Assembly (NCBI GenBank): GCA_030549335.1
Contig: CM060194.1
Coordinates: 21,454,171-21,518,170, forward strand
Direction: 5' to 3'
DNA: 64,000 nucleotides
Source: Pontederia crassipes
Lineage: Eukaryota > Streptophyta > Magnoliopsida > Commelinales > Pontederiaceae
The notes beneath the pieces were generated by a model. That model was not told the origin of the DNA, did no database searches, and saw nothing but the letters and a program-made list of their open reading frames with translations. Both the position numbers and the translations under genes were made by a program. The stretch's first letter is position 1. Every line of letters starts with the position of its first letter. Shown here in pieces: positions 2,858 to 41,884 of the stretch.

Positions 2858-5800
2858 TTAGCTAACATTCTTCTTTGGAATTCGCGTGGAGCTGGAAATC
2901 CCCGATTCCCGAAGCCTTGAAGGACCACATAAGAAATCATTGACTAGATATCATCATCATGTTGTAACCCAAAATTAGTGGAAGACGTGATGAAATTCTC
3001 ATACTATTTGCATCGCATTGAGGCGATTGGCTTCTCGGGCGGCATATGGATTCTCTGGCTGCCTATACCCGCTCAGCGACCATGACTAGGGGTTCCTATG
3101 TGAAATCATCGATGGCAACCTTCGTTGGTTTCTTACTGCGATCTACGACAACCCGCAGGATCACGATGCCTTGCACTTTGGGACGAGCTATCCACCCTAA
3201 AGGACAATTTTCACCCTCATCCCTGGCTTCTAATAGGAGATTTCAAGATCTCATGGATACGGCAGAAAAATCTGGAGGTGGCCCCTTCAACCACCACAGT
3301 GCAAGCCATTTCCGCGACGTCCTCTCCCTATGCGGACTCCTCAACCTGGGTAGTGTGGGACCTAGGTTCACCTGGCGTGGACCGGCCTCGTCGGGATCTG
3401 CCCCTCTCCTTGAGAGGCTGGACAGGGCTGTATGTAATGCTGCTTGGAGAATGAAATTTGAAGATGCCCTTGTCCGTGTTCTCTCGCGCACATCATTTGA
3501 TCATCACCCCTCCTACTTCAGATCCTCCCTACCGCAACCAGGCTGAGATGCAATTCGCCCTTCCCTACCTCGCCGCCTGGCACACTCATTGTGGCTTTAA
3601 CGACTTCCTCTGGGAGGCGAATGCTTCGCTCCTCACCAACCTCGCGCACTTCAAAACTCAGGTGAAGGAATGGAACCACTCAACTTTTGCAATATCACTC
3701 GACCGAAGACTCGGCTATATGCTCGGCTCTCAGGTATACAAGATACTCAGCAAAAGCACCATAGAAATAATCTAGCCACATTAGAGGCCAATCTCAGAAC
3801 CGACCTTGCGACCACGTTCTCCCAAGAAGAACTTCTCTGGTTCCAAAAGTCTAGATGCGACTAGATTCTTGCGGGAGATCGCAATACGTGCTTCTTCCAT
3901 ACTAGGGCCATCATGCAACGTAAGAGGATTGCCATACACACTCTCATGAATTCTGAAGGACATTGGATATCCATGGCCTCCGCTCCATGGCGTGACGCAC
4001 TTCTCCAACACTTACAAGGAGCAGAATGCGGAAATGATAGATCCCATCAATAACCTTTTCCCAGCAAGCACTGTGGACTTGCTTTCCCCTCTTTCGGCAA
4101 GGGTCACTTTGGTCGAAGTAAAGCAAGTTGCCTTCTCCCTGAACGCCCATGCTATTTTCTACCATCACAATTGGAACACTATTCAGCACGCTGTGTGCAA
4201 TCACATTGCTGCCGTCATTGATGAAGGGGAGTTTGTGGCGTCACACAACTAGACATATGTCGTCTTAATCCCGAAGTGTGAGCGACCTGACTCATTACCT
4301 ACAAACTTATTACAAAGGTCATTGCCAATTGCCACTCGCCTCCAACAATATATGAAGGACCTAATCGCATCGTTCCAGTCGAGCTTCATCCGTTGGCAAA
4401 GCATCCACAACAATATTTTTATAACCCAAGAGCTTGTTCACTTCATGAGTCATATGAAAGGAAGGAAGCAGTTCATTTCCATTAAAATTGACCTTAAAAA
4501 AGCCTTCGATCGCGATGAAGCTTCATCCTTGAGACCCTGCACGGTGTCCCACACAAAATATGCTGCACTATTATGGACTGCCTCTCCACTGCTACCCTCC
4601 AAGTGCTCTGGAATGGTACCCCCACCGATGCCTTTCACATGGAGCATGGAATCAGGCAAGGATGCCCATTGACCCCTTACCTATTCGTTCTTTGTGTCGA
4701 GCACTCTCAACCATCTCATTCTTGCAGTTGTCGACTATGGCGAGTGGGAACATATCAGAGCTGGCAGGTATGGTCCCCCATGTATCATCTTATGTTCGCT
4801 GACAATGTATTTCTTTTCACAGACGCTGCGTCCGTCCAACTAGACATAGTCCTCCAGGTGCTCAACAAGTTCTGCATAGCGGCGGGCCAGCGGGTCAATC
4901 CTACTAAATCAGCCATCTTCTTCTCCAGGATGGTTCCTTCGGCGACCAGAGCTAGCATCATCTCTCGATCCTCCTTTCAGGTTGTCACCTCCATTGGGAA
5001 GTATCTGGGCATGCCAATCATCCATGGGTGCGTGAGAAAAGAAAACTTTGCCAGCCTCGTTGACCGGGTCCGATGTAGAGTGGACGGTTGGGCATCCAAC
5101 ACCCTGTCCCTGGCCAGAAGAATCACTCTCGCCCAATTAGTAATACAAGCCATCCCCTCGCATGCCATGCACACTGCCCAAATCTACTTGCAATGAGATC
5201 CATCGGATTACCAAAGATTTCATTTGGGGACACTCGTCATTGCATCACCGTATACATCTTGTCATAAAAAACTGGAACGACATCTCACAACCCAGAGACT
5301 ATGGGGGCCTTGGCCTTCGGCGGTTCTCCATCCTCAACGATGCCATGATTGGCAAGCTGGGGTGGGGTGTTGCATCGAGACGAAACTTTCTTTGGGTGCA
5401 TATCCTCATTGGCAAATGTGCGGGGCGTTGCAGCTCGCATGGACACCTACGCGCAACGTCCTCTCACTCATGGTTGTGGAAGGCCATCTGCAGGGCTTCG
5501 AACCCCTCGTTGGATCAGTACATTGGAAACTTGGGGACGACTCTACCATCACCTTCTGGGACAATGCCTGGCTCCAGGTGGCGTCACCCTCGCACCGAGG
5601 GCAATCGTCACGATCCCACCCGACATAAGGGACCTCAGGGTTGGCGACCTTGTGGATTGCTAGGTCGTTGGGACCTTCCTAGAATACATGATTCGCTCTC
5701 CATGGAGGACACCATTATGGTTATGGGCTCATCACTCCCAAAACCCCGGCTAAGTCCAGATACTATGTACTGGCCGTTGGAGCTAGATGGAAGTTACTCT

Positions 5801-6670
5801 GTGAGATCAGCCTACCATGTGCGGTTGACTCTGCATCTCAACCAAAGAAATCATCTCTGGAAGCTCATTTGGAGTTGGAGGGGGCCGCAAAAGATTCACA
5901 CCTTCCTTTGGCTGGTTGAGCAGGGCCAAATCCTCACTAATGAACAACGCTACCGTCGAGGATTCTCCTCCTGCGATGGATGTGTTCGGTGCAACACCAA
6001 CACAGAGACCCAATTACATGTGCTTTGCAACTACAATTGGGTTTCTCGCGTTTGGAGAAGATTGATCCCCAACTCCTTTGCCCTCTCCTTCTTCAATTGC
6101 ACTCTTTCTAATTGGATTTCTCTCAATTTGTAGGTTAGGTTATCGGTCGAAGATGGCCATTCTTGGCCCCTTATCTTTGGAGCTGCATGCTGGCTTTTCT
6201 GGACGTGGAGAAACCGCCTTGCCTTCTACCACGCCGCGCCGCCATCCAATCCTCGCTCTGCCATCCTTCAGCTTGCGGCACAACTCAGCCTTACCACGTG
6301 ACTCCATCTGCCACCCGCCCCAGCCCTGCACCCCGTCGGGTGGCCCCTCTGGTGGGGGTGGCTCAAATGCAACGATGTTGGTGCTACCTCCACTATTGGA
6401 AATTGTAGCAGCTGTGGGGCGCTCATCTGCGACCACACCGGCCAATGGATTCGCGACTTCATGGCACCCATTGGGCATGGTAATGCGCCGAAGGCTGAAC
6501 TGCATGGTGTGCTTATGGGCCTCCAAGCCTTATGGAACTTTGGCGTCAGACGCATCAACATCGAGACCGATTCTCTATATGCCGCTCAACTCGCACTCAA
6601 CCGCATTTCTGCGGCCTCCCATATCGCTAAGCTTGTGCAGAATATTCACACGCTATTGGCGCACGACTAG
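2858..6670 (+). pseudogene. LINE ORF2 remnant: endonuclease, reverse transcriptase, zf-RVT, RNase H
   Basis: ORF2 can be followed through several frames. Around 2858-2915 the reading LLWNSRGAGNPRF matches the start of the L1 apurinic endonuclease. The segment at 3310-3530 contains FTWRG and LERLDRAVCN, typical of its C-terminal half. Reverse transcriptase begins near 4255 (VVLIPK) and includes IKIDLKKAFDR (about 4481-4513), GIRQGCPLTPYLF (4650-4688) and the active-site block FADNVFLF (about 4795), where the usual FADD has become FADN. LGMPI follows at about 5010. A zinc-binding domain typical of plant LINEs (GSYSVRSAYH, then a Cys/His cluster) lies at 5780-6050. An RNase H piece (APKAELHGVLMGL, ETDSLYA) lies at 6485-6670. 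Multiple frameshifts and stops show that it is dead. Confidence 0.88.
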
Positions 6671-11660: not shown

Positions 11661-12118
11661 CGTAGCGAGCGGAGAAGGCGGCTTACATCGGAGGTTTTAT
11701 ACAGGCAGAAGTGGGCCGGCGGCTTACATGGGCCGTCCATGTTGACAGTGGATCCCGACCGGTCAATCTGAGCAGCGGTGTAAAATTCGAGTTCCGTGAA
11801 CAAAGCTCTCGCCTCAAATTCCTAAAATGTCTCAACTACCGAAAAAAAAATTCCTAAAACGTGTGAAGATTTCTTGCCCAGCTGTACACTTGGCAAGACT
11901 TGAGTGGTCCACCGTGTCACCACTATAATCAAGTGTTTGTCCTTATGTTTCGCCTATTTGAAGTTATCGTGTACACAATTTATGATCGTCTTCATCAAGT
12001 CAAAGATAATGTACTTTGCTTAGGAAATGCATGGAATACTGGTAGTTGGGCCGTTTGATTAGGGAATAAAATGACATGAAATAAAATAATATAATATAAT
12101 ATGATATTTTCAAAAAAT
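11661..12118. other. intergenic between the HIG1-domain gene and the Helitron block
   Basis: No coding signal is evident. The sequence is moderately GC-rich near 11661-11760 and becomes AT-rich toward 12118. The right part is the presumed host flank of the outer Helitron-like element. Confidence 0.5.
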
Positions 12119-12671
12119 TCAATATATATATATATATATAAGTAGAGGTAAAAGCATGCTGAGAGTTTGACAAATGGCATAATATTATAATGACACGTGT
12201 CATTTAATAAAATTAAATATCTAATATATTTTAAAAAAATAACTAACTTATAGATGAATATAATTTAACCAACTAAGTCTTGATGAAAAGCAAAAGTTTA
12301 GATTTAATACTATATATAATCCTAATAAGTGACCATCTATATTTTTAATCCTAATTCAACTAATATTAGTACTTTGTATTGATTAAATAAATAGTATTTC
12401 CTTTTAAGAATTAAGAAATATATTATTTTTCATTTTGAAAAATCTGTATTATAAGATAATAACAGTTAATTATATAAGATGATAATATATGCAAATTATT
12501 ATAAAATTAATAACCATAAAGTTACGTATCCTAACTTATATTACATAATTAATCTTAAAAAACATAATAATTGTATTATTTTCGAACTTTTTTCAGAAAA
12601 TAAGAAATATCATGAAATGGATTTAGTTATTAAATAAGGTAATAATATTATATAATGGACTTCAATTAATC

Positions 12672-12867
12672 CTAATCAAATTAAATTTATCCTTCAGATT
12701 TAATCTTTTCTTATTACGGGTCCTACAAATATTACGGATATACTAAAAGCTAATAATTGAATCCTAATACTAATCAAATTAAATTTATCCTTCAGATTTA
12801 ATCTTTTCTTATTTCGAGTCCTACAAATATTACGGATGCACTAAAAGCTAATAATTGAATCCTAATC
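12672..12867 (+). repeat. two tandem copies of a 98-bp unit
   Basis: The segment 12672-12769 is repeated at 12770-12867 with only a few differences (for example attacggg versus atttcgag and gatatac versus gatgcac). The copies join head to tail. The sequence is non-coding and lies inside the AT-rich outer Helitron-like block. Confidence 0.85.
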
Positions 12868-14639
12868 CTATTTAAATTAATTAACTGTTTTTCTTTTTTA
12901 AAAGACAAATTCAATTTCATATTAAAGTTTATTTGTATGATTTGAATATGATTAAAATAAATATTGTTTCCTTTTAAAGATATTGTACAAATATAATATG
13001 AATTTTTTTATATTATAATATCCGTATCCTAATATATAATATCTAAGATTTTTTATTCGAACAAAAGTAAACTAACTTTGTGTATGACTTAAATAAATAA
13101 TCTTTTGTTTTCCCATAATCTTCAGCGATTCATGTTTTTTTCTAAATTAATTCCTTTCTTGATTTCTTCTCTAATCCATGAACGCTAACTTTTTATGTTT
13201 TATTAGAAGAAAAAAATATATTACAAGATATATTATATTATTTCAAAATCTAATCCTAAGATATTATATTATAATATCCGTATCCTAATATCTAATATAG
13301 TATAAAATTATCTTATAATAAAAGTTCGTTATATAAGCCTGAAATAAAGAAAGATTAAATCTATAAAAGTAAATTAATTTGATTACAAGTTGGACAGTTT
13401 GTTTGATTAAAATATTATAAAATAGAAAAATATATGATTAAATTCAAAGATAAGTCTAATTGGATTACAAATAAGGTTCTACTGATTAAACAAAATAATA
13501 CTTATTATTATTCTCAATTGTTTTTCCAAAAATATAGCGATCTTATAATAAAAGATTATTATATAAGGAAATAATATCCATAATATTTGTATATAATATT
13601 TACTATTAAATATAAAAAAATATGCAATTGAAAATTAAAATATCTATATATATATAAGGTAAACAGTGGAATGCCAGGTGGCATCTCCACAAATTTTTGA
13701 AAAAATATTGAATAATAATAATACAGTTAAAAAAGAGAATTTAAACAAATATTAATAATCTAAATTATATCCTAATATTACGATATAATTAACTATTGAC
13801 ATATCTAACTATATCCTAATATTACGGTATCTAAACAAAACTATATCCTAATATTACTGTTAGTATAAATTAATTATAAATAAAATTATATCCTAATATG
13901 GCGCCTAATATTACGGTATGTCAAGAAATGTGCATCCTAATATTTAAATCCTAATTTATTTCACTACATCCTAAGATTAATATTATATATCCTAATATTG
14001 AGTATTTAACTATGCTAATATTAATTTATTCCATATAAATTGATGATTATCCTGATTTATTTAAAGTTTGAATCTTAATCATAATTCTAAAAAATCGCGT
14101 ATCCTGATATTGAGTATTGCATAAAATTCTACATCTATTCTAATATTAATATGTATCTTAAAAAGACTCCTACATAAAATTTAATAGCATTTATGATATT
14201 ACATGTCTCCGCATCTGACGAAGGAATTAAAAAGTTCAATCCTTTTAACTCAATTTTTCAAAGATTTCGTATTATTTTTAGAATTAAAAAAATAAATGAC
14301 TATGAATAATTTAAAACAAAGCATAACTAAAATTAATTTGATTAGAAGTAGAATTTTCGGATCTGTAAAAGTTTTTTTGCTGAGTAAATATAATAATATT
14401 AATATTTTTTAATCTATTTACAGAATATTATAATAAAGTTTGTTAAATTATACAATAACATTTCTGAAATTAGAAGAGAGGATTACCTTTAAAAGATAAA
14501 TAATATACACAATAATTATAAAGTTTCTTATATACACAATAATATATGTCCAAATTAAATGGAATTTTATATGAAAATTAATTCAAGAAGAAATAGGAGA
14601 CTTAGTAGGTTCAAATGAGAAAAATTAAATAATTCAGAA

Positions 14640-15530
14640 TATAATTTTTTAAAAAAAGTTAATTTATTCTTATTTTCATATTTAGAAAATAACGTTTGTA
14701 AGATCAAAATAAAAAAAGTAAGTAAATTTTAAAAGTAAATATAATCTGATTATATGAGTAAATCTGGTCATATTATTATTTTCAGGTTTATTTATAGAAA
14801 ATAAAAATATTTTATAATAACAAGTTTATTGAATTAGGTAGCCACATTTCTGAAAAAATATTAAATTTAAAAGGTATATATAATTTGATTAGGAGTATAT
14901 TCAGATTTGCAAAAATAAAAGATTATGTAACCTATAATAATGGAATTTCATATTAAAATTAATAAAATTATTGAGTAGAAGTAGGAGACTTAGTAGGTTG
15001 AAATGAGAAAATAAATAAATAATTCAGAATAAAATACAAAAATAAAGTTAATTTATTCTTATTTTCATATGTAGAAAATAACATTTGTAAGATCAAAATA
15101 AAAAAAAGAGTAAATTTTAAAAGTATATATAATCTGATTAGGATCAAGAAATTTTGTATGAGTAAATCTAATCATATTATTATTTTCAGATTTATTTATA
15201 TAAAATGAAAATATCATATAATTTGATTAGGAGTATACTTTTCTTATTTTTAAAAATAAAATTTTAATATTTTTTATATAACCCAATAATAATGGAGTTT
15301 CATATGAAAATTAATTAAATTAATTTGAATAGAAGTAGGAGACTGTAAAAATAAAGTTAATTTATTATTATTTTCATATTTAGAAAATAACATTTATAAG
15401 ATCACAATAGAAAAATGAGTAAATTTTAAAAGTAAATATAATATGATTACGAGCAAGAAATTTTGTATGAGTAAATCTAATCGTATTATTATTAGGTTTA
15501 TTTATAGAAAATGAAAATATCTTATAATAA
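14640..15530 (+). repeat. three diverged direct repeats of a roughly 300-400-bp unit
   Basis: The block that starts aaaagttaatttattcttat and contains tttagaaaataac, gtaagatcaaaataaaaaa, taaattttaaaagta and aatctgatta recurs at about 14655, 15045 and 15350. The spacing is uneven and there are many point differences. This looks like old tandem amplification inside the Helitron. Confidence 0.6.
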
Positions 15531-16258
15531 AGTTTGTTAAATTAGGTAACCACAATTCTAAACAAATTTATTAAATTAAAAAGGTAAATATAATTTGATT
15601 AGGAGTATATTTTTTAGATTTATAAAAATAAAATATTAATAATAATTTTTATATAACTCAGTAATATATGTTCAAAATAAATGAAATTTCATGTGAAAGT
15701 AAGAGTACTCTTAATAAGTAGGTTTGAATTGATAAAAAAAGAACGAATTGAATAAATATAAAACTACATTAAAAAATGAATTGAATAAATAATTAGTCGA
15801 GCTTCCATGTATGTAAATAACTCAACCTATAATTAAATTTGTTAAATACTAACAATTTTTATTAATCTTTTTAAGTGATGACGTAGAGAGATATATAATG
15901 ACCATGTGCATGTTAAACTATTAAGCATACTGTTTTAAATATATATAACATTGTTAGTCAATTATATATTTTATTTGATGAATTGGAGATCACATTCAAG
16001 AACACATGGAATTTAAATGGAAAATGAACTTGTAGGTGTTAAAATAATTAATCAATCTAAAATTAATTATGATAAATATTAAGATAAATTTTCTTAGTCT
16101 TCTAAATTATGACTTTGAATATGTGGGCGTATGTAATAATGGTATGCATGATATAATAGTATGCTACTAACATGTTAATTATGATTTAATATATGTATAT
16201 AAATGTAATAATTTTTTTTCTTTATGACAAAGTACTGAGATATAGGAGATCCAAATCA

Positions 16259-17402
16259 TAAATGCGACAAATGTTGATCATATTTTTTTATACGAGTAAC
16301 GTATTAAAATACATTAAAAACCTATTTAAAAAATATCTATTTAAATTATATCACCATTAGATACATATGATATGATTATCAATTTATAATATAACATTGC
16401 AAATGCCAAAAAAATGATCACTTTCGAGAATATATTAGAAGCGGCAATTTTATATTTTTATTTACTTCAATGGGCGAAATCAATAAATAAAATAAAAGGG
16501 CCAAGCACTTTCAATGTGCAATTGTGCATGCTCAAAATTATCATCATATTAAAAATTTGTTGCCTTGGGATGGATGCTTTCCAAAGTTTGCATAATTGTA
16601 TAGTTTTTTATACACGGAATAAAGTAGAAGATAGACTTCATACCATGAGGCCACTTTCCATATATAATGTCATCCTTAAATTTTTGCACATAATTATTTT
16701 AGTAAGTTTGCCTAATTCTCCTTTTTACAGCTTCGGAAGAAAAAAAATCACAAGAATATTATTGCTGACTTGAAACAAATGTTGGATGAAGTGATGAGCA
16801 TAATGTTTTAGCAAAGACCTTTAGAATGATAAGAGACAAAATTTAAAAGGATAAAAACTCTATAGTAAAACTCAAATTAATAGGGAAAAGAAATATTGAT
16901 AGAAGAACATACAATTTATCAACAACTTCAGAAGTATTTGCTTTGGTAGTGGGAGATTTTAAATTTTCTAGAGGTGATCGAGATATTATTGTTCAAACTA
17001 GATTTATGCAATTACAAAGGATAAATGCGCTAACACGCTACTTATTTAAGTGTACAATATTAGTTGCTTGATCCTTATGTAGAAGATAGTTGTAGGGGAG
17101 ATATTTCATTAAATAAAATAATACTTCAACTAAATGAAGATAATGTAAGAATATTTTTCTTAAAAATTTAAAGAAAGGAAGGATGAAATATCACTAATTG
17201 TATTATCAAGGGGATTATTTCAACATCTTTTTATTGAAGCTTCTCAACTGAAATATATAAAGCTGAATGCCAAAAAGTAATTAAGGACACCATTAAAATT
17301 TGATCAATGAATGACAGTCATATGATACAAGAGTATCATTCAAAATTTAGTGTAGACAATTTTCAGTGATATATTTTTCAATGAACATTAATAAAAGCCA
17401 AG
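16259..17402. other. Helitron interior without recognisable content
   Basis: One frame of 119 codons exists (16414-16773), but its residue composition is that of AT-rich random sequence and it matches no family I know. I see no further structure before the TRIM element. Confidence 0.4.
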
Positions 17403-17407
17403 ATCAA

Positions 17408-17837
17408 TGTAATGACCTGAGGTCTAAGGACCAAGATGGTCTCAAATAGTCCCACATGGACAAAACATGAAGGTGATCATGAGCTTATATGTAGCTACCC
17501 TCTTTACTATAAAGACGCGTTTTAAATTCGTACGGGCCAATGACCCAAAGCGAACAATATCTTGATCGAGTTGGAGGGTGTTACATATGGTATCAAAGCC
17601 ACTCCGCGTGAACCTCCGTGCATGATGGGGTGCGATCACTCAACGAGGGCGTTGAGTCCCCTAAGGGGGGAAGGGTGCATGAGGCATGCCTTGTATTAGT
17701 CCCACATGCATAAGTCACAGGAGAGATACTGGGTATATATGAGAATATGTTCTTGTCTAGGTGTGATGCGTTTTGGTAAAATCGTGTGAACCGAGGCTCA
17801 AAACTGAGAATATCACACGCTGGTCAGGTATGTTACA
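17408..17837 (+). mobile_element. TRIM element (miniature LTR retrotransposon), 430 bp
   Basis: The element is flanked by the 5-bp duplication ATCAA (17403-17407 and 17838-17842). The 5' LTR-like part, 17408-17585, starts TGTAATGACC and ends GTGTTACA. Two bases later comes TGGTATCAAAGCC (17588-17600), a near-perfect primer-binding site for initiator tRNA-Met. A purine-rich tract (aaggggggaaggg) ends at 17673, directly before the 3' LTR-like part, which starts TGCATGAGG and ends TATGTTACA. The two LTRs share blocks such as TAGTCCCACATG but are strongly diverged, so the copy is old. There is no coding capacity, which is normal for TRIMs. Confidence 0.75.
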
Positions 17838-17972
17838 ATCAATCATTGTTTTACATGAGATTATTTCTTAAGAAACTTAATATTTTCACACGAATAATTT
17901 TATAGCTCTTTCACGTGTGGCAAATAGATAATGCCTCAAAATTTTTAGTTTATGATGAAGATGATCAGGTAA

Positions 17973-18250
17973 CAGGGGTGAGCAAAATCGAATTTATGTC
18001 GTTCGGTCTCGATTTGATTTGCTCTGGTGTTCCAGTTAAATCGAAACAAAAATAAAAAAAATTTCGATTATTTTAGTTTGACCATAAAAAATATATACAT
18101 ATATAATAATAATTTAATTAAAATAAACATAATTACAATATTTTAAAATATTTTAATATTAATATAATCTATTTAATCGGATCGGGATGCGCCGATCTCG
18201 ATCCGAGAAATCTGAGTCAGTGCGATCGTCCCGTCCCGTGCTCACCCCTA
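17973..18250. mobile_element. hAT-type MITE, 278 bp
   Basis: The terminal inverted repeats are CAGGGGTGAGCA at the left and TAGGGGTGAGCA reading in from the right. The flanks are an 8-bp duplication with two mismatches, TCAGGTAA (17965-17972) and TCCGATAA (18251-18258). The interior is non-coding. The terminus is a very common one among plant hAT MITEs. Confidence 0.8.
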
Positions 18251-19889
18251 TCCGATAACAAATGGAATAAAGGATGTGGTTTATAAAAAAAGTATTTCTA
18301 AATATGATGCAAAGGTATAACAATGTTCAATTTCTTTAATATACATTCATACTAAATAATAATGTCACAAATTTAAATTATTACCTTTTTAATTATATTT
18401 AAAATTTTTGTAAGAACCGTGCATCGCACGGGTTCTTGATGCACGGTTCTTAGACTAGTAAAGTTAAATTACTAGGAATAGGATTTTTTTGTATGATTAA
18501 ATTAAGAAAAGAAATGTAGAAATCAGATGAAAATTAAAATCTTTAAAATAACTGAAAATTGTTTAGTACGATTACATCCAATTATGATATATGTATGTAT
18601 AACGGAAAATTAAATGAAAGTAAATAAAAAAAAGTTATTTTTTTCTTTTTTGAGTAGGAGTAGGATTTTTGGTATAATTAAATCAAAGAAAACAAATTAA
18701 GGCATAACTAAAAATGAAGTTGGATTACATTTAGAGGCAGAAAAAATGATACATCCGTCTAAAACTTTATCCTAATAATCCTTCTAACACTCAATAAAAT
18801 ACCTTTACAAATTAAAAAATTACCACACATTTCATTGTATTTGTGAACCAAATTAAAAGGCTTATCCTCCTAATTTAGGAGGATGTAGTATTACCCTTCA
18901 AAAGAAGTAATTGAGTCAGTAAAGTAAGAATTTTGACAAATTTTTTTTCATTTTTTCAGATATATTTAAAATTTAAAATATTTACACAAAGGATTTATTA
19001 TATAACATTTTATATCCTAAAGATAATTCACAGTATAACAATAAAATTCTAATCCCAAACATAATCCCAATACAAATCTATCAATATATAATATCTGATT
19101 CAAATATTAATATAATTTATTATTACTTTTGAATTTATTTGCAAAAATAAAAAAGTGCTATAATAAAGTTTAAGTAGTAACTTTCGTAATTATGTTAATA
19201 GTTCCCTTTGAAAAAATAAGTACCTTTGGAAAGAGATAATTTAGGTAAGACACCTAGACGCAGTTCTATAATAAAATTTGAAAATTTAATTTAATAATTC
19301 CAATCTCATATTTTTATATAAGGTGAAAATATTGATAAGCAATAAAAGAAAATAAATTTAAATTAAAAACAGAAACTAATTTATTTGGAAATGGGATTCT
19401 TTGTTTAATTAAAATATTTATATTCACGAGAAAATAAAAATATATTTTGATTAGAAGTATGATTCTTTTAATTAAAAATGAATATATTATTTCACTAAAT
19501 TCATTACATAATAAAATTTATTCATCAGAAAAACTATAAGAAAACATCGTTAAATAAGATAATAATATTTACAATATTAGAAATAAAAGAATATTAGATC
19601 TAAAATTTACAACATTTTTATTAGAAGTATGATTCTTTGTTTGATTAAAATATTTATAAGCCTCAAAATAAAATTCTAATTTGATTAGATGTAGGACTTT
19701 TTTAAAATTAAATGACGGAATATGTTATTTTTCCAAAAGTTCTTATTTTTTATATTATTTAATACAACAAAAATTGTTTAATACTTATTTTAAGAGATAA
19801 AATAAGCTTTATAAAAATTGGAATATTATTTCCATGCATAAAATGTTTGATTTTGACATTTTTAAAATAAGGATTTAAATTTGAGTCAA

Positions 19890-21180
19890 ATTGATAGTAA
19901 TATTTAATTTTTATCAAATTGAGAATGATTAAAATAAATAATATTTTATTTCTAAAAGATAATGTGTAGGTAAATAATATTTCTTTTTTAAAAGATAATC
20001 TGTTAAGTTCGTATTAAAAAATAATTTAAAATGAAGATCTCAATTTGTGTCAAATTAATATTTTCTTTTTTATCACTTTGTGTATAATTTAATTAAATAA
20101 TATTCATAAAGTAAATAATTTAATTTGAGTCAAATTAATATTAATATTTTCTCTTTATTAATTTGAGTACAATTAAAATAAATCATAGTTTTCTTTTTAA
20201 AAATAATGTACAGGTAAATAATAATTAATTTTTAAAAAGATAATTTGTCATTTCGAAATTAAAAACAATTAAAATAAGGATATAAATTTGACTCAAATTA
20301 ATATTTATATTTCATTTTTTATCAATTTGAGTATGACTGAAATAAATAATATTTTATTTCTAAAAGATAATCTGTAGGTAAATAATATTTATTTTGTAAA
20401 AGATAATTTGTTAATTTCTTATTAATAAATAATTTAAAATGAAGATCTCAATTTGTGTCAAATTAAAATTAAAATTTATTTTTTATCAAATTGTGTATAA
20501 TTTAAATAAATAATATTACCTTTCAAAAAAATAGTTATAAGTGAATAGTAATTCATTTTTAAAAGAAAATTTGCTATTTTATGAATTAAACAAATAATTT
20601 AAAATAAATAATTCTATTAGAGTTAAATTAAGATTAATTCTTTCTTTTTATCAATTTGAGTATTATTAAAATAAATAATATTTTCTTTCTAAAAGATAAT
20701 GTGTAGGTAAATAATATTTATTTTGTAAAAGATAGTCTGTTAATTTCGTATTAAAAAATAATTTAAAATGAAGATCTCAATTTGTGTCAAATTAAAATTA
20801 AAATTTCATTTTTTTATTGTGTATAATTTAAATTGAATAATATTACCTTTCAAAAAAATAGTTATAAGTGAATAGTAAATCATTTTTAAAAGATAATTTG
20901 CTTTTTTATGAATTAAACAAATAATTTAAAAAAATAATTCAATTACAGTTAAATTAAGATTAGCTCTTTCTTTTTTATCAATTTGAGTATTATTAAAATA
21001 AATAATATTTTCTTTCCAAAAGATAATGTTCATGTAAATAACAATTCTTTTTAAAAGATAATTTGTTATTTTCATAATTTAAAATTTATTGTAAATAAAA
21101 TGTCAGATTAATATTAAACTTTCTTTCTTATGAATTTGAGTATTATTGAAATAAATAATCTTAGAGAGGTAATACACAAA
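19890..21180 (+). repeat. diverged tandem array of a roughly 330-410-bp AT-rich unit
   Basis: The segment with attaaaataaataatatttt, ctaaaagataatgtgtaggt and atgaagatctcaatttgtgtcaaatta recurs at about 19925, 20330, 20665 and 20990 (shifted and partly eroded). The marker aagatctcaatttgtgtc itself appears at about 20033, 20443 and 20773. The unequal spacing indicates indels after amplification. It is non-coding. Confidence 0.65.
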
Positions 21181-22090
21181 ATATAATAAAATAAATGATA
21201 TGTACTAAAAATAATGTGTTATTTTTTTTGTATTAAATAAACATTATTTCCTTTTATAAAGGCAACGTAGAAGCATAATAAAAAATAATATTTCATTTTA
21301 CATTATGTTATAATAATTTGTTACGTAAGCTAACACAAATAATTTATTAGCATAATTTGATCAGAAGGTGTTTTTTTAGTATGATTAAAACAAATAATAT
21401 TGAGATAATTTATTATTTTCAGATTTAAAGATTTTAAATAAATAATTCATTTTCAGTCAAATTAGGATTAATATTTCCATGTTATCCCTTTGAGTGTGAT
21501 TAAAATGAATAATCATCCCTTTGTAAATGGTGATGCAAAAAATATAATAAAATAAATAATATATCATTTCTAAATGTAATGTATTATTTTTGTGTGTAAA
21601 TAAATACTATTTCCATTATAAAAGGCAGTGTACAAGTCAATAAAATTAATAATATTTCATTTTTAAAAGATAAATGTACTATTTTCGAAATAGAAAAACA
21701 TAAAACAATGAATTCAATTGAATCCAAATAATTTAAAATAAAGAATTAAATTTTAGCTCAATTAAGATTAATCTATTCTTATATTTTCTTTTTTAAAAAC
21801 ATTGGACAAGTATAATCTATGCTCGGACGAAGCTCCTGTCGGGCAGGGCTGGCTTGGTAGAATTTCATTAAGGTTGCGTGCCGGACGAAGTAAAATTTTA
21901 TCTTTACCTATTTGTCACATTAGGTGATAATAAATTAATTTTGATAATTATTAAAAATTATAATATTACAATTATGTATTGCATTTTTTATAATATCGAT
22001 CATCTTTTGAAAATAATGATATATTATAATATTATAATTATATAATATATAATATTTGTCGTCCGTGCATCGCATGGGATTTAGGACTAG

Positions 22091-22376: not shown

Positions 22377-23015
22377 TCTAATTCTATCTATTATTTAGTT
22401 ATATTTTAGAAACAACTACTCTGGATTCTTTCATTTCCATGTAAAGATCATTTTCTTCACAAGTACGTTCACCTACTCCACCAAATACAGATACATCCGC
22501 ATGGCTTTGGCAATGTTGTTGATCAATTCTACGATGAGTACTGTTTTACCCACTTCGGCTCCCTCAAATAGTCCTATGTTTTATCCACGGTGATAAGGAG
22601 CTAAAAGATCCATCACTTTAATTTCTGTTTCAAAGATTGATAATTTCGTCTTTGATTGTATGAAAGCAGACGCGGATATATGAATAGGAGATATTGTGCG
22701 AGTATGTATAGGACCTAAATCATCAATAGGCTCCTCGAGAACGTTGAAAATTCGTCCAAGAGTAGCTCCGCCGATAGGAACACTTAGAGGAGCTCCCGTA
22801 TCAATCACTTCCATCCCTCTCGTCAGTCCGTCGGTAGCACTCATAGCTACAGCTCTAACTCGATTATTTCCTAATAATTGTTGTATCTCACAAGTCACAT
22901 TAATTTGCTATCAGACAGTATCTCGACCCTTAACTACCAACGCGTTATAAAAATTAGGCATCTTGCCCGGAGGAAAAACGACATTTAGTACTGGCCAATA
23001 ATTTGAGCGACACGC
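22377..23015 (-). pseudogene. atpB: plastid-derived atpB fragment (NUPT)
   Basis: On the minus strand the sequence reads as the N-terminal and central part of chloroplast ATP synthase beta subunit. Around 23010-22960 it gives RVAQIIG and PGKMP in different frames. At 22898-22581 it gives [20 protein letters not shown] and [12 protein letters not shown]. At 22570-22500 it gives [20 protein letters not shown], the Walker-A neighbourhood, although the P-loop GG..G.GK start is damaged. Stops after GRDTV and several frameshifts make it non-functional. The C-terminal half of the gene is missing. The divergent orientation relative to the rbcL remnant matches the normal plastid order. Confidence 0.92.
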
Positions 23016-24221: not shown

Positions 24222-25333
<1,112 letters not shown>

Positions 25334-25928: not shown

Positions 25929-29525
<3,597 letters not shown>

Positions 29526-38730: not shown

Positions 38731-41700
38731 TCAGCTGAGTCGGTAGTGGTCGTTCATATCCCTAACAATGGACTCGAGAGTGCTCCAAACTTCCCCCGCG
38801 AGGTCCGGGCGGCTCCGCCTGCTCCCCTGACAGCAACTCAAGCCCAGACGCGCCAGCCGATTGGCCTGGGGGAGTGGCCAGTCGCCCGCCGAAGGGTCGA
38901 CCACGATGTGCAGGCACTCCTTGTCCAGCACCTCCTGCACCACTTTGGCCACGCCCAACGCGGGCCTTCCCGTCAGGAGGCGCAGGATGATGATGCCGAA
39001 GGAGTAGACGTCGGACCCCGTGGTGAGTTCCCCTGTGCGGAGGAACTCCGGGTCGATGTACTGGATCGTGCCCTTGGGCTGTGTGTTGCGGTAGGGGCTG
39101 GCGGTGCTCGTCTCAGAGTGGATGGTCAGGAAGCGGGAGATGCCGAAGTCGCTGAGCTTGCTGGCGAAGTTGGAGTCGAGCAGGATGTTCGCAGGCTTCA
39201 GATCGCCATGGACGACGGGGTGGGGCTTGATGGAGTGGAGGAAGACGAGGGCAGAGCACATCTCGACCATGATGCGGGTGCGCACCTGCCACGTGAGGGG
39301 CGTGGACCCATCCCTGTGCTTGAGGAAGTCCTGGAGGCTCCCATTGGGGAGGAACTCGTAGATAAGCGCCAAGACTTCGGGGCATGCTCCTATCAGGGTC
39401 ACAAGGTTCGGGTGCCTCACCTTGCTGAGAATAGCCACCTGCAAGCATTGATATTTAGTCTTCTTTGTTTGCTCCTGATCGAAACTAAACTCCTAATGAA
39501 ACTTTAGACATGAAAAATCGGATCAGTATGTGTCAGAGCTAGTTACATGTTGTGTCATGCCAAGGAGCTCGGCCACAGGCTGCAACCTCTATGTCTCCAA
39601 AGAAAATAGAGTAATGGACGCAAATGCGACTAGAGGAGAACTCGGATTAGTTACCTCGTGATGGAACTCGGTTCGGCCCTGCATGCTTTGCGGATGCAAC
39701 ACCTTTATGGCTACGTGTGTGTTGCGAAGGAAACCCTTGTAGACGATCCCGAACCCTCCTTCACCGATCTTAAGCGAGCTGCTGAAGTTTCGAGTTGCTT
39801 CCTGGAGCTCCTCGTAGGAGAACTCCGAGCCGCAAGCTGCAGAAATGCTCGTGCTCATCTGCTCAACCTTGTGCCGCAACTCCTCGGCTTCTAGAACGGC
39901 CATGTCCAGCTGCTTCTGGAGCGTGTTGCAATCTGCCCGCAGCGAACGAACTTCCTCCTTCAGCATCTTCGCGGTGTAACTAGAATCAATGAGCTTGAGT
40001 TCCAACTCTAATTTCTTCTTGTTTGCCTCCTGGAGTTGTCGGGAGACATCATGATGCTCAACTTCGAGTTCTTGGGCTACTCTGATAGCTTCGTCTCGCT
40101 CCTTCTGCATCGCCTTGCTGTCTTCTTCAAGCGCGCGGAGTTTCTCTTCCATTGCTTTCATGACATGATTCGTCCTAACAGCCAAATTCTCCATGCTTTG
40201 GCCATCCGGTTCACGAATATTTATGTATTCTCTCGTCAAATCATAATTCTAGAATAAGGAAAATGGTCGATATGAGATCCTAATGTTGCAACCAAATTGT
40301 AATTGAAACGACCAAAGTTTGTATCAGATTATGATGCAAACCTGGCCTGACAAAGAGAAGCATATATTTGGGGAAGAATCAACAATGTACCTTCACATCA
40401 TTGTGGCCAACGGGTTTAAAAGTCTGGAACGAATACATAAATCTCCTGTCTGTGCTTGTTATGCTTATCATGGCACCAGCTTTGCTCCCTCCTGCAATAA
40501 AACTTGGCGCTGAAAAAACTGTGACCAATCTCTTATCAGCAAAAAACTGATACCCATTCTCGACCACCTGAAGGAACAAAAAGATGCAATACACTAATTA
40601 CTTATCAAAGAATGAATTGTGAGGAGAAAAAAAAAGTGCCGATAATTCTTTTACTGACATCATGACCTCGGCAGATAAGATCGAGATGAGTTCTCTCCAA
40701 GAACTCCACGACTGCACCAGCACCATACTTAAACATGCCACCCTGAGCAGATTCAGTCCATGCCCACCTTCCACCATCCGGATCAAGATCATTCAGCAGT
40801 AAAGAACGGTGATCGAATTCCAGGAAGTCGACTGGCTTCCCCAATTTCTTGATTTGGTTCAAGCTCTGCAACTGCGGGGAGAGGCCGCTGTGGATGCAGA
40901 ACACAGAACTGTTTATTACGGCTGCCACAGGCAAGCAATTGAGCACATCGCAGAACACATGCCAGAGCTCGTTGCTGAATCTTCTCTTGAATTCAGCACA
41001 GAAGTTGCAGAGAGTTATGTCCTGGGTGTTCTCCCAATTGCCCCTCAGGAGGAAAATTTTACCCGGATACTTAACTTTGTAAGCTAGAAGCAGAGCTGCA
41101 GTCTCCAAACTCTGCGACCCGCCCTGCATATTTCCGGCGCGGCCGTCCAAGAAATTTCCCAGAAACAGGTACGTCGTGCGAGGAGGATGGCCGCCGATAT
41201 CAAACAGCCTCAAGAGATCATCATACTGACCACGTACATCTCCTGCAAGACAGGGAAGTAATGTAAAATTCTACCTTTCCTTTCTCGTTCGATTGCAGCA
41301 CGCACAGAGATGCTAATAAACCTAAAAAAAATTTATCTTTGTCTAGAACTACCATACAGGATGACCAAATCAAAACAAACGTATGGAAAATATAATAATA
41401 ATGATAATAAAAGAAAACATCTTTAGCTTGTTTCGTCTCGTCCTTTTCATGATTCAGGCGAAGTACGCATGAGTATTAAACAATGCCGCCATTGTTGACT
41501 TCAGCCTTCAAACTCGGGATGGTTTCGTTTATTCCACAGAAAAAAAAGGAGAAGAGAATGTAGATATGCTATCTAAATCAAAAGAGCGGATGCTACCAGT
41601 GCTGTATGCAAACAGAGTCATGGGAATTGGGAGGGAAAGGAGAAGAAGAACTGACCACAGATGTTGATTGGAGCGCGAAGGTCGAGCAGGCAGGGCTCGG

Positions 41701-41884
41701 AGAGGAGTAGCGTTTTGGCCTGTAGACAGAGCTGCCGGAGCTTGCTTTCCTTGAGGTCCAACTTCCGCCGTCCTCCGCCGCTGCCTCCGCAGTCCAGCAG
41801 CCGCTGTATCACGTCATCGACGGCCGCCTCCTCTCTACCTCCTTTAGCAATTACTTGACCTCGCTTCTTTCGCAGCATCTCCAT
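38731..41884 (-). CDS. predicted pseudophosphatase-coiled-coil-kinase fusion gene, 5 exons, 763 aa
   Basis: The exons on the minus strand are 41656-41884, 40659-41242, 40391-40567, 39655-40248 and 38731-39438. All introns are GT..AG, and the lengths total 2292 nt with every junction in frame. Residues 1-330 are a PP1/TOPP-like fold ([44 protein letters not shown]) with catalytic positions lost: GDxHG is GDVRG, GDYVDRG is GNFLDGRAG, and GNHE is GNWE. Residues 331-480 form a coiled coil. Residues about 487-735 are a kinase with [26 protein letters not shown] (a non-RD loop) and DFG, close to RLCK-IX/U-box kinases, but no U-box follows. Intron 3 (40249-40390, 142 bp) is the key inference: without it the phosphatase frame ends after VHC-stop at 40379, and the kinase lacks a start. 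Two separate genes remain possible. Confidence 0.72.

Follow-up and report, generated by a model that had tools for sequence, protein, structure and literature searches.

A predicted single gene joining a PP1-like pseudophosphatase to a coiled-coil kinase in Pontederia crassipes

Gene structure and surrounding features

The window, meaning the whole stretch of DNA that was analysed, covers 64,000 nt of Pontederia crassipes CM060194.1 (contig C12:21454171-21518170), and the gene described here lies on its minus strand. Five exons running from 41884 to 38731 are joined at GT..AG borders with intron phases 1, 0, 0 and 0, and are read as a predicted fusion product of 763 residues in which a PP1-like domain is followed by a linker, a coiled coil and a kinase. 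The exons, the intron that joins the two halves, and a related kinase copy elsewhere in the window are listed below.

41656..41884, minus strand: exon 1, with the start and the N-terminal region of the PP1-like half (STPPase_N, residues 22-70), from the gene model and Pfam; conserved on C7 and C8
40659..41242, minus strand: exon 2, PP1-like Metallophos core (domain residues 72-273); 584 nt at four loci
40391..40567, minus strand: exon 3, C-terminal part of the PP1-like domain (with Y272F); 177 nt at four loci
40249..40390, minus strand: intron 3, joining the two halves, with an in-frame stop TGA at 40381-40379; stop offset equal at four loci
39655..40248, minus strand: exon 4, linker (residues 331-358), coiled coil (about 359-470) and start of the kinase; 594 nt at four loci
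38731..39438, minus strand: exon 5, remaining kinase (16 protein letters not shown) and stop codon, with no U-box found beyond it
25947..27203, minus strand: decayed sister coiled-coil kinase with stops and frame breaks, from similarity search and the kinase tree

A Pfam search of the predicted product gave matches to STPPase_N (22-70, E 1.5e-12), Metallophos (72-273, E 1e-24) and Pkinase (488-707, E 1e-41). No PP2C domain was matched at E 0.001 or better, and no Usp domain was matched by Pfam, PP1-like domains being found instead. For the first half, a match to human PP1-gamma (E 9e-88) spans the entire domain, at 50% identity over 292 residues, and the kinase half matches plant receptor-like kinases and IRAK4. 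Third-position GC is high in exon 5 (0.86). Exon 3 ends in GHNDVK, followed by the donor context AAG/GTACAT, and if unspliced the PP1-like frame would meet the TGA nine bases inside intron 3, so that a lone product would end in KVHC. An earlier sequence-only reading of this DNA had described the five exons with their borders and phases, the 142-bp interval and the length of 763 residues, all of which were recovered, as was the stop it had placed 9 nt past the donor. The same reading had called the donor context perfect; it is in fact ordinary, agreeing with MAG/GTRAGT at 7 of 9 positions, where the other three donors of the gene agree at 6, 6 and 7.

The decayed kinase at 25947-27203, which had gone unnoticed in the sequence-only reading, has a match of 65% identity at C11:50467611-50468072. 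The idea that this copy was also once fused was rejected, the best match to the PP1 half in the window outside the fusion gene having an E of 0.11. Other parts of the window were characterized by composition and by eye. Open frames at 22581-22907 (minus strand) and 24698-25123 (plus strand) resemble, by eye, fragments of plastid ATP synthase beta and the Rubisco large subunit, which suggests an inserted plastid stretch. Positions 12001-22000 are mostly very AT-rich (17-21% GC, except for 31% at 16001-18000), a tandem array with a 165/327-bp period is located at 20122-21079, and a chain of open frames at 3022-6670 (plus strand) resembles, again by eye, a decayed LINE-type retroelement.

Conservation of the fusion and state of its two halves

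Two queries were run against the species' own 1.13-Gb assembly of 43 contigs: the Metallophos model, for which 99 of 125 candidates were scored, and the PP1 half, for which 121 of 169 were scored. Among the candidates scored, the fusion class was found at at least four loci: the window (C12), C11 at 50.43 Mb, C7 at 44.71 Mb and C8 at 31.56 Mb. At C11, C7 and C8 too, a coiled-coil kinase lies directly downstream of the PP1 half. The C11 copy is a near-identical partner of the window copy, and the C7 and C8 copies form a diverged pair. Exons 2, 3 and 4 have the same lengths at all four loci and the intron phases are all equal; this recurrence of the exon chain at three further loci makes the chain read in the window more than a product of chance. 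Three of the four copies are open to the end, encoding 763 (window), 756 (C7) and 754 (C8) residues, and in the C11 copy (L009) an A run in exon 1 is longer by one base, which breaks the frame and may reflect either an assembly error or a null allele. Between the window and C7 the exons are 75-84% identical, with no gaps in exons 2-4 and gaps of 15 bases in exon 1 and 12 bases in exon 5, whereas the introns are 56-67% identical with many indels. Intron 3 measures 142, 142, 110 and 109 nt at the four loci and so differs modulo 3, with both of its sides in frame, and a stop is found nine bases inside it at every one of them.

The first half falls within the PPP family, with both STPPase_N and Metallophos present and similarity to PP1 over its whole length. 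Residues of the window, C7 and C8 copies were aligned and compared in PP1-gamma numbering, using what we take to be the roles of the compared residues (metal ligands, general acid, phosphate-binding arginines) and the residue list of the RVxF groove. H66R, D92N, R96G, R221Q and Y272F are common to the three copies, all but the last lying in exon 2 of the window gene; H125 is replaced by W in the window and by A on C7 and C8, where N124E is also found. The window copy carries a seven-residue insert in exon 2, ahead of R96G, and lacks W206, a loss that C7 and C8 share. The set of metal ligands, general acid and phosphate-binding arginines is thus no longer intact, and from its residues the PP1-like half is almost certainly a catalytically dead phosphatase. 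D64, N124, H173 and H248 are kept in the window, and D64, H173 and H248 could be taken to favour an active phosphatase whose metal site is altered, but H66, D92, R96, H125, R221 and Y272 are replaced in all three copies compared, and such activity is barely credible. As the window, C7 and C8 have these losses in common, the PP1 half had most likely ceased to be catalytic by the time duplication separated the loci. In the RVxF groove, 7 of 12 residues are identical to PP1-gamma, compared with 50% over the domain; the proposal that PP1 regulator grooves were specially kept is not supported, this identity being close to the domain average.

The glycine loop, lysine, HGD, DFG and DPEF are present in the kinase half of all three open copies (20 protein letters of the motifs not shown), and the kinase half is probably a working kinase. 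Residues 359-470 have a strong hydrophobic period of 3.5 residues, as in a coiled coil, with a heptad power that was reached by none of 2000 shuffles; the 28-residue linker ahead of them has no such period (its heptad power was reached by 675 of 2000 shuffles). A similar coiled-coil exon precedes the kinase in relatives. The usual layout of RLCK-IX / PUB kinases is USP, coiled coil, kinase and U-box, and we take the kinase group of the fusion kinases to be the RLCK-IX / U-box family. For the U-box, 150 of 171 candidates were scored and matches on the same strand were counted up to 0.7 kb downstream; among the candidates scored, a U-box match was found at 9 of the 11 nearest unfused relatives and at none of the four fusion loci. 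No convincing U-box remnant was found downstream of the window gene (best E 0.29). As for the USP domain, the upstream pieces of relative L058, joined by eye, gave a Pfam Usp match of E 6e-4, which is below the Pfam cut-off, while neither the joined upstream pieces of relative L059 nor single USP exon pieces gave a Pfam Usp match.

Selection on the two halves was estimated as dN/dS between the window and C7 by NG86, a crude estimator. The ratio was 0.22 for the whole gene, 0.14 for the PP1 half (0.09 in exon 2), 0.26 for the start of exon 4, 0.28 for the coiled coil and 0.26 for the kinase. A synonymous excess was obtained in each tested part, with p ranging from 0.009 (start of exon 4, 28 codons) to 1e-30 (PP1 half), and both halves are under purifying selection after the split of the loci. 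The gap between the ratios of the PP1 half and the kinase comes mainly from synonymous rates (p 0.014), dN showing no significant difference (p 0.37). As a dead PP1 domain is being held by purifying selection, the role of the PP1-like half is most likely non-catalytic.

It is very likely, judging from these comparisons, that one gene encodes one fused protein of 763 residues. The sequence-only reading had proposed such a single gene, a pseudophosphatase plus a coiled-coil kinase, and its proposal is borne out by the recurrence of the layout at four loci and by the purifying selection that acts both before and after the junction. If there were instead two close tandem genes, a short PP1-like gene ending in intron 3 and a kinase gene starting inside exon 4, the stop nine bases past the donor would be explained, as would an in-frame ATG at residue 19 of exon 4 (40194) of the window gene, which the C11 copy has in the same position. 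C7 and C8, however, lack this ATG, and in their exon 4 an in-frame ATG is first met at residue 87 and 95, respectively, within the coiled coil; the codons around and before the residue-19 ATG show a synonymous excess (dN/dS 0.26, p 0.009, for the start of exon 4). The gap between exons 3 and 4 is moreover just 109-142 bases, and AATAAA was not found between these exons in the window and C7, the two copies scanned. The two-gene model was rejected because its sole candidate start is missing from C7 and C8 and because intron 3 differs modulo 3 with the flanking codons in frame, and we leave it only a very slight probability. The earlier statement that the kinase half has no start of its own therefore needs qualifying, in that an in-frame ATG does exist at 40194, but it stands insofar as no start is conserved on C7 and C8.

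Two further alternatives to a simple single fusion gene concern its products and its fate. Both a lone and a fused product might be made, retention of intron 3 giving a pseudo-PP1 that ends three residues past the donor and splicing giving the fusion, in which case the switch would tune the kinase. That the stop offset is equal at the four loci despite different codons (TGA and TAG) is consistent with such an arrangement, but common ancestry alone could hold the position of the stop, and we consider it unlikely that both products are made. The fusion could also be a non-functional relic heading for decay, given the frame break in the C11 copy and the decayed sister kinase about 11.5 kb downstream; this is highly unlikely, as three of the four copies are fully open and purifying selection is found in the tested parts after duplication.

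Origin of the fusion

Every fusion locus is accompanied by a PP1 gene (L012-L015) that lies on its contig and strand at a distance of about 180-245 kb. The catalytic letters of these neighbour PP1s are intact, with residues aligned for one of the four (L012), and together they represent a divergent PP1 branch in which NHEDAKINR replaces the usual NHECASINR. In a PP1 tree of 28 rows, built on the exon 2 region, the fusion group and the four neighbour PP1s are set apart from the remaining 20 rows at a support of 99/100, a placement that the long fusion branch may bias. The PP1 introns of the fusion are found at the same places and in the same phases as in the three neighbour PP1s that were read (L012-L014).

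A kinase tree of 27 rows, all from the same genome, nests the fusion kinases in the genome's own U-box kinase group. The decayed kinase of the window is closest to the four fusion kinases, with a support of 99/99 for the five together, the branch of the decayed row being long. The sequence-only reading had suggested that the PP1-like fold took the place of the USP domain, and in outline this is supported: the fusion kinase nests among kinases of its own genome, of which L058 has an upstream Usp match below the cut-off and L059 none. The reading had missed that the loss extends beyond the USP to the U-box. The intron in the fusion kinase is at a phase-0 place, as in the four relatives read, and the coiled-coil exon of relatives starts at a phase-0 acceptor (L022, L024), which means that a new donor past the PP1 core could join to it without a frame problem. 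The fusion may have arisen when a nearby PP1 gene was duplicated and the duplicate lost its end, gaining a donor located a few codons beyond the PP1 core that would have been spliced to the phase-0 acceptor of a coiled-coil kinase exon.

The dS of the C12 fusion gene against C7 and C8 is 0.59-0.61, and that of the neighbour PP1s is 0.53-0.64. This match suggests that both probably moved in one large duplication and that the fusion is older, so that the fusion probably predates the large duplication that it shares with the neighbour PP1s. Lower values of dS were obtained within the pairs, namely 0.04 for the fusion genes of C7 and C8, 0.03 for the neighbour PP1s of C11 and C12, and 0.135 for the neighbour PP1s of C7 and C8. 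C11/C12 and C7/C8 look like haplotype pairs, although for C7/C8 the neighbour PP1s are more divergent.

Known systems and possible role

Like the fusion, RLCK-IX / PUB kinases have a coiled coil and a kinase with a common phase-0 kinase intron, but the fusion has a PP1-like domain in place of the USP and no U-box. Plant PP1 catalytic subunits (TOPPs) resemble the PP1 half in their fold, as judged by sequence, and in their introns, the nearest being the intact neighbours on the same contigs; the fusion differs from them in having lost catalytic residues and in having a kinase half in place of the C-terminal tail. BSL/PPKL phosphatases, which consist of Kelch and a PPP domain, likewise join a phosphatase domain to another module, but BSL is without a kinase. 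There is also a separate PP2C-cyclic-nucleotide-kinase protein in which a phosphatase is joined to another module, but it is of the PP2C type, and it was not found in our search of the open-access literature. Sr43 is reportedly a wheat kinase fusion protein. The wheat kinase fusion protein Lr9 (PMC10260399) is like the fusion, in which kinase and non-kinase domain share one predicted frame, in joining a plant kinase to a foreign domain, and unlike it in its partner domains and its reported resistance role. VTC3 of Arabidopsis is reported to contain serine/threonine kinase and PP2C domains (PMC12675267), and so is similar in combining a kinase and a phosphatase domain in one plant protein. Its phosphatase is of the unrelated PP2C family and is not called dead in the excerpted source (PMC12675267), where its kinase is named just a serine/threonine kinase. 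The sequence-only reading was aware of no published protein of this kind, and a PP1-type phosphatase joined to a plant kinase was not found in the open-access literature, as covered by titles and the starts of abstracts. This is a weak indication that the layout is new, as copies in related species may have been annotated without being discussed.

The explanation that we favour as a whole, with moderate confidence, is that of a dead PP1 fused to an RLCK-IX-type kinase without USP or U-box, having the origin outlined above and a targeting role. Its least certain part, for which the chances appear about even, is that the dead PP1 fold serves as a targeting or scaffold module, much as the sequence-only reading had supposed in proposing a phosphatase-shaped scaffold. 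Such a module would bring a dimerised kinase to PP1 partners or substrates, the coiled coil pairing the protein and the kinase acting on whatever the PP1 module holds. As the RVxF groove is kept no better than the rest of the domain, a PP1-like docking role is without sequence support. It is conceivable, if somewhat unlikely, that the kinase poses as a PP1 catalytic subunit, entering the network of PP1 regulators and substrates and phosphorylating where PP1 would dephosphorylate. An integrated decoy, in which the dead PP1 half would bait PP1-targeting pathogen effectors and the kinase would signal immunity, as in other plant kinase fusion proteins, seems doubtful: effector-facing domains usually change rapidly, but the PP1 half is under strong purifying selection (dN/dS 0.09 in exon 2), and nothing ties the locus to resistance. 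The idea draws on reports that plant PP1 is a target of Phytophthora infestans and Ralstonia effectors (PMC4740116, PMC10273071) and that the Lr9 tandem kinase fusion protein gives wheat leaf rust resistance (PMC10260399).

Returning to the favoured reading of a dead PP1 fold that targets a kinase, it is unusual for a pseudophosphatase to be joined to a kinase that appears active, and since the layout is kept in duplicated copies the dead phosphatase half apparently still has a job. If the kinase does pose as a PP1 catalytic subunit, a phosphatase address would have been turned into a kinase address and kept through a large-scale duplication. A single genome here allows loss of catalysis, fusion and subsequent purifying selection to be placed in temporal order, and it also supplies natural controls in the form of intact sister PP1 genes and unfused sister kinases. 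The fusion locus offers a testable case for a PP1 fold that no longer removes phosphate.
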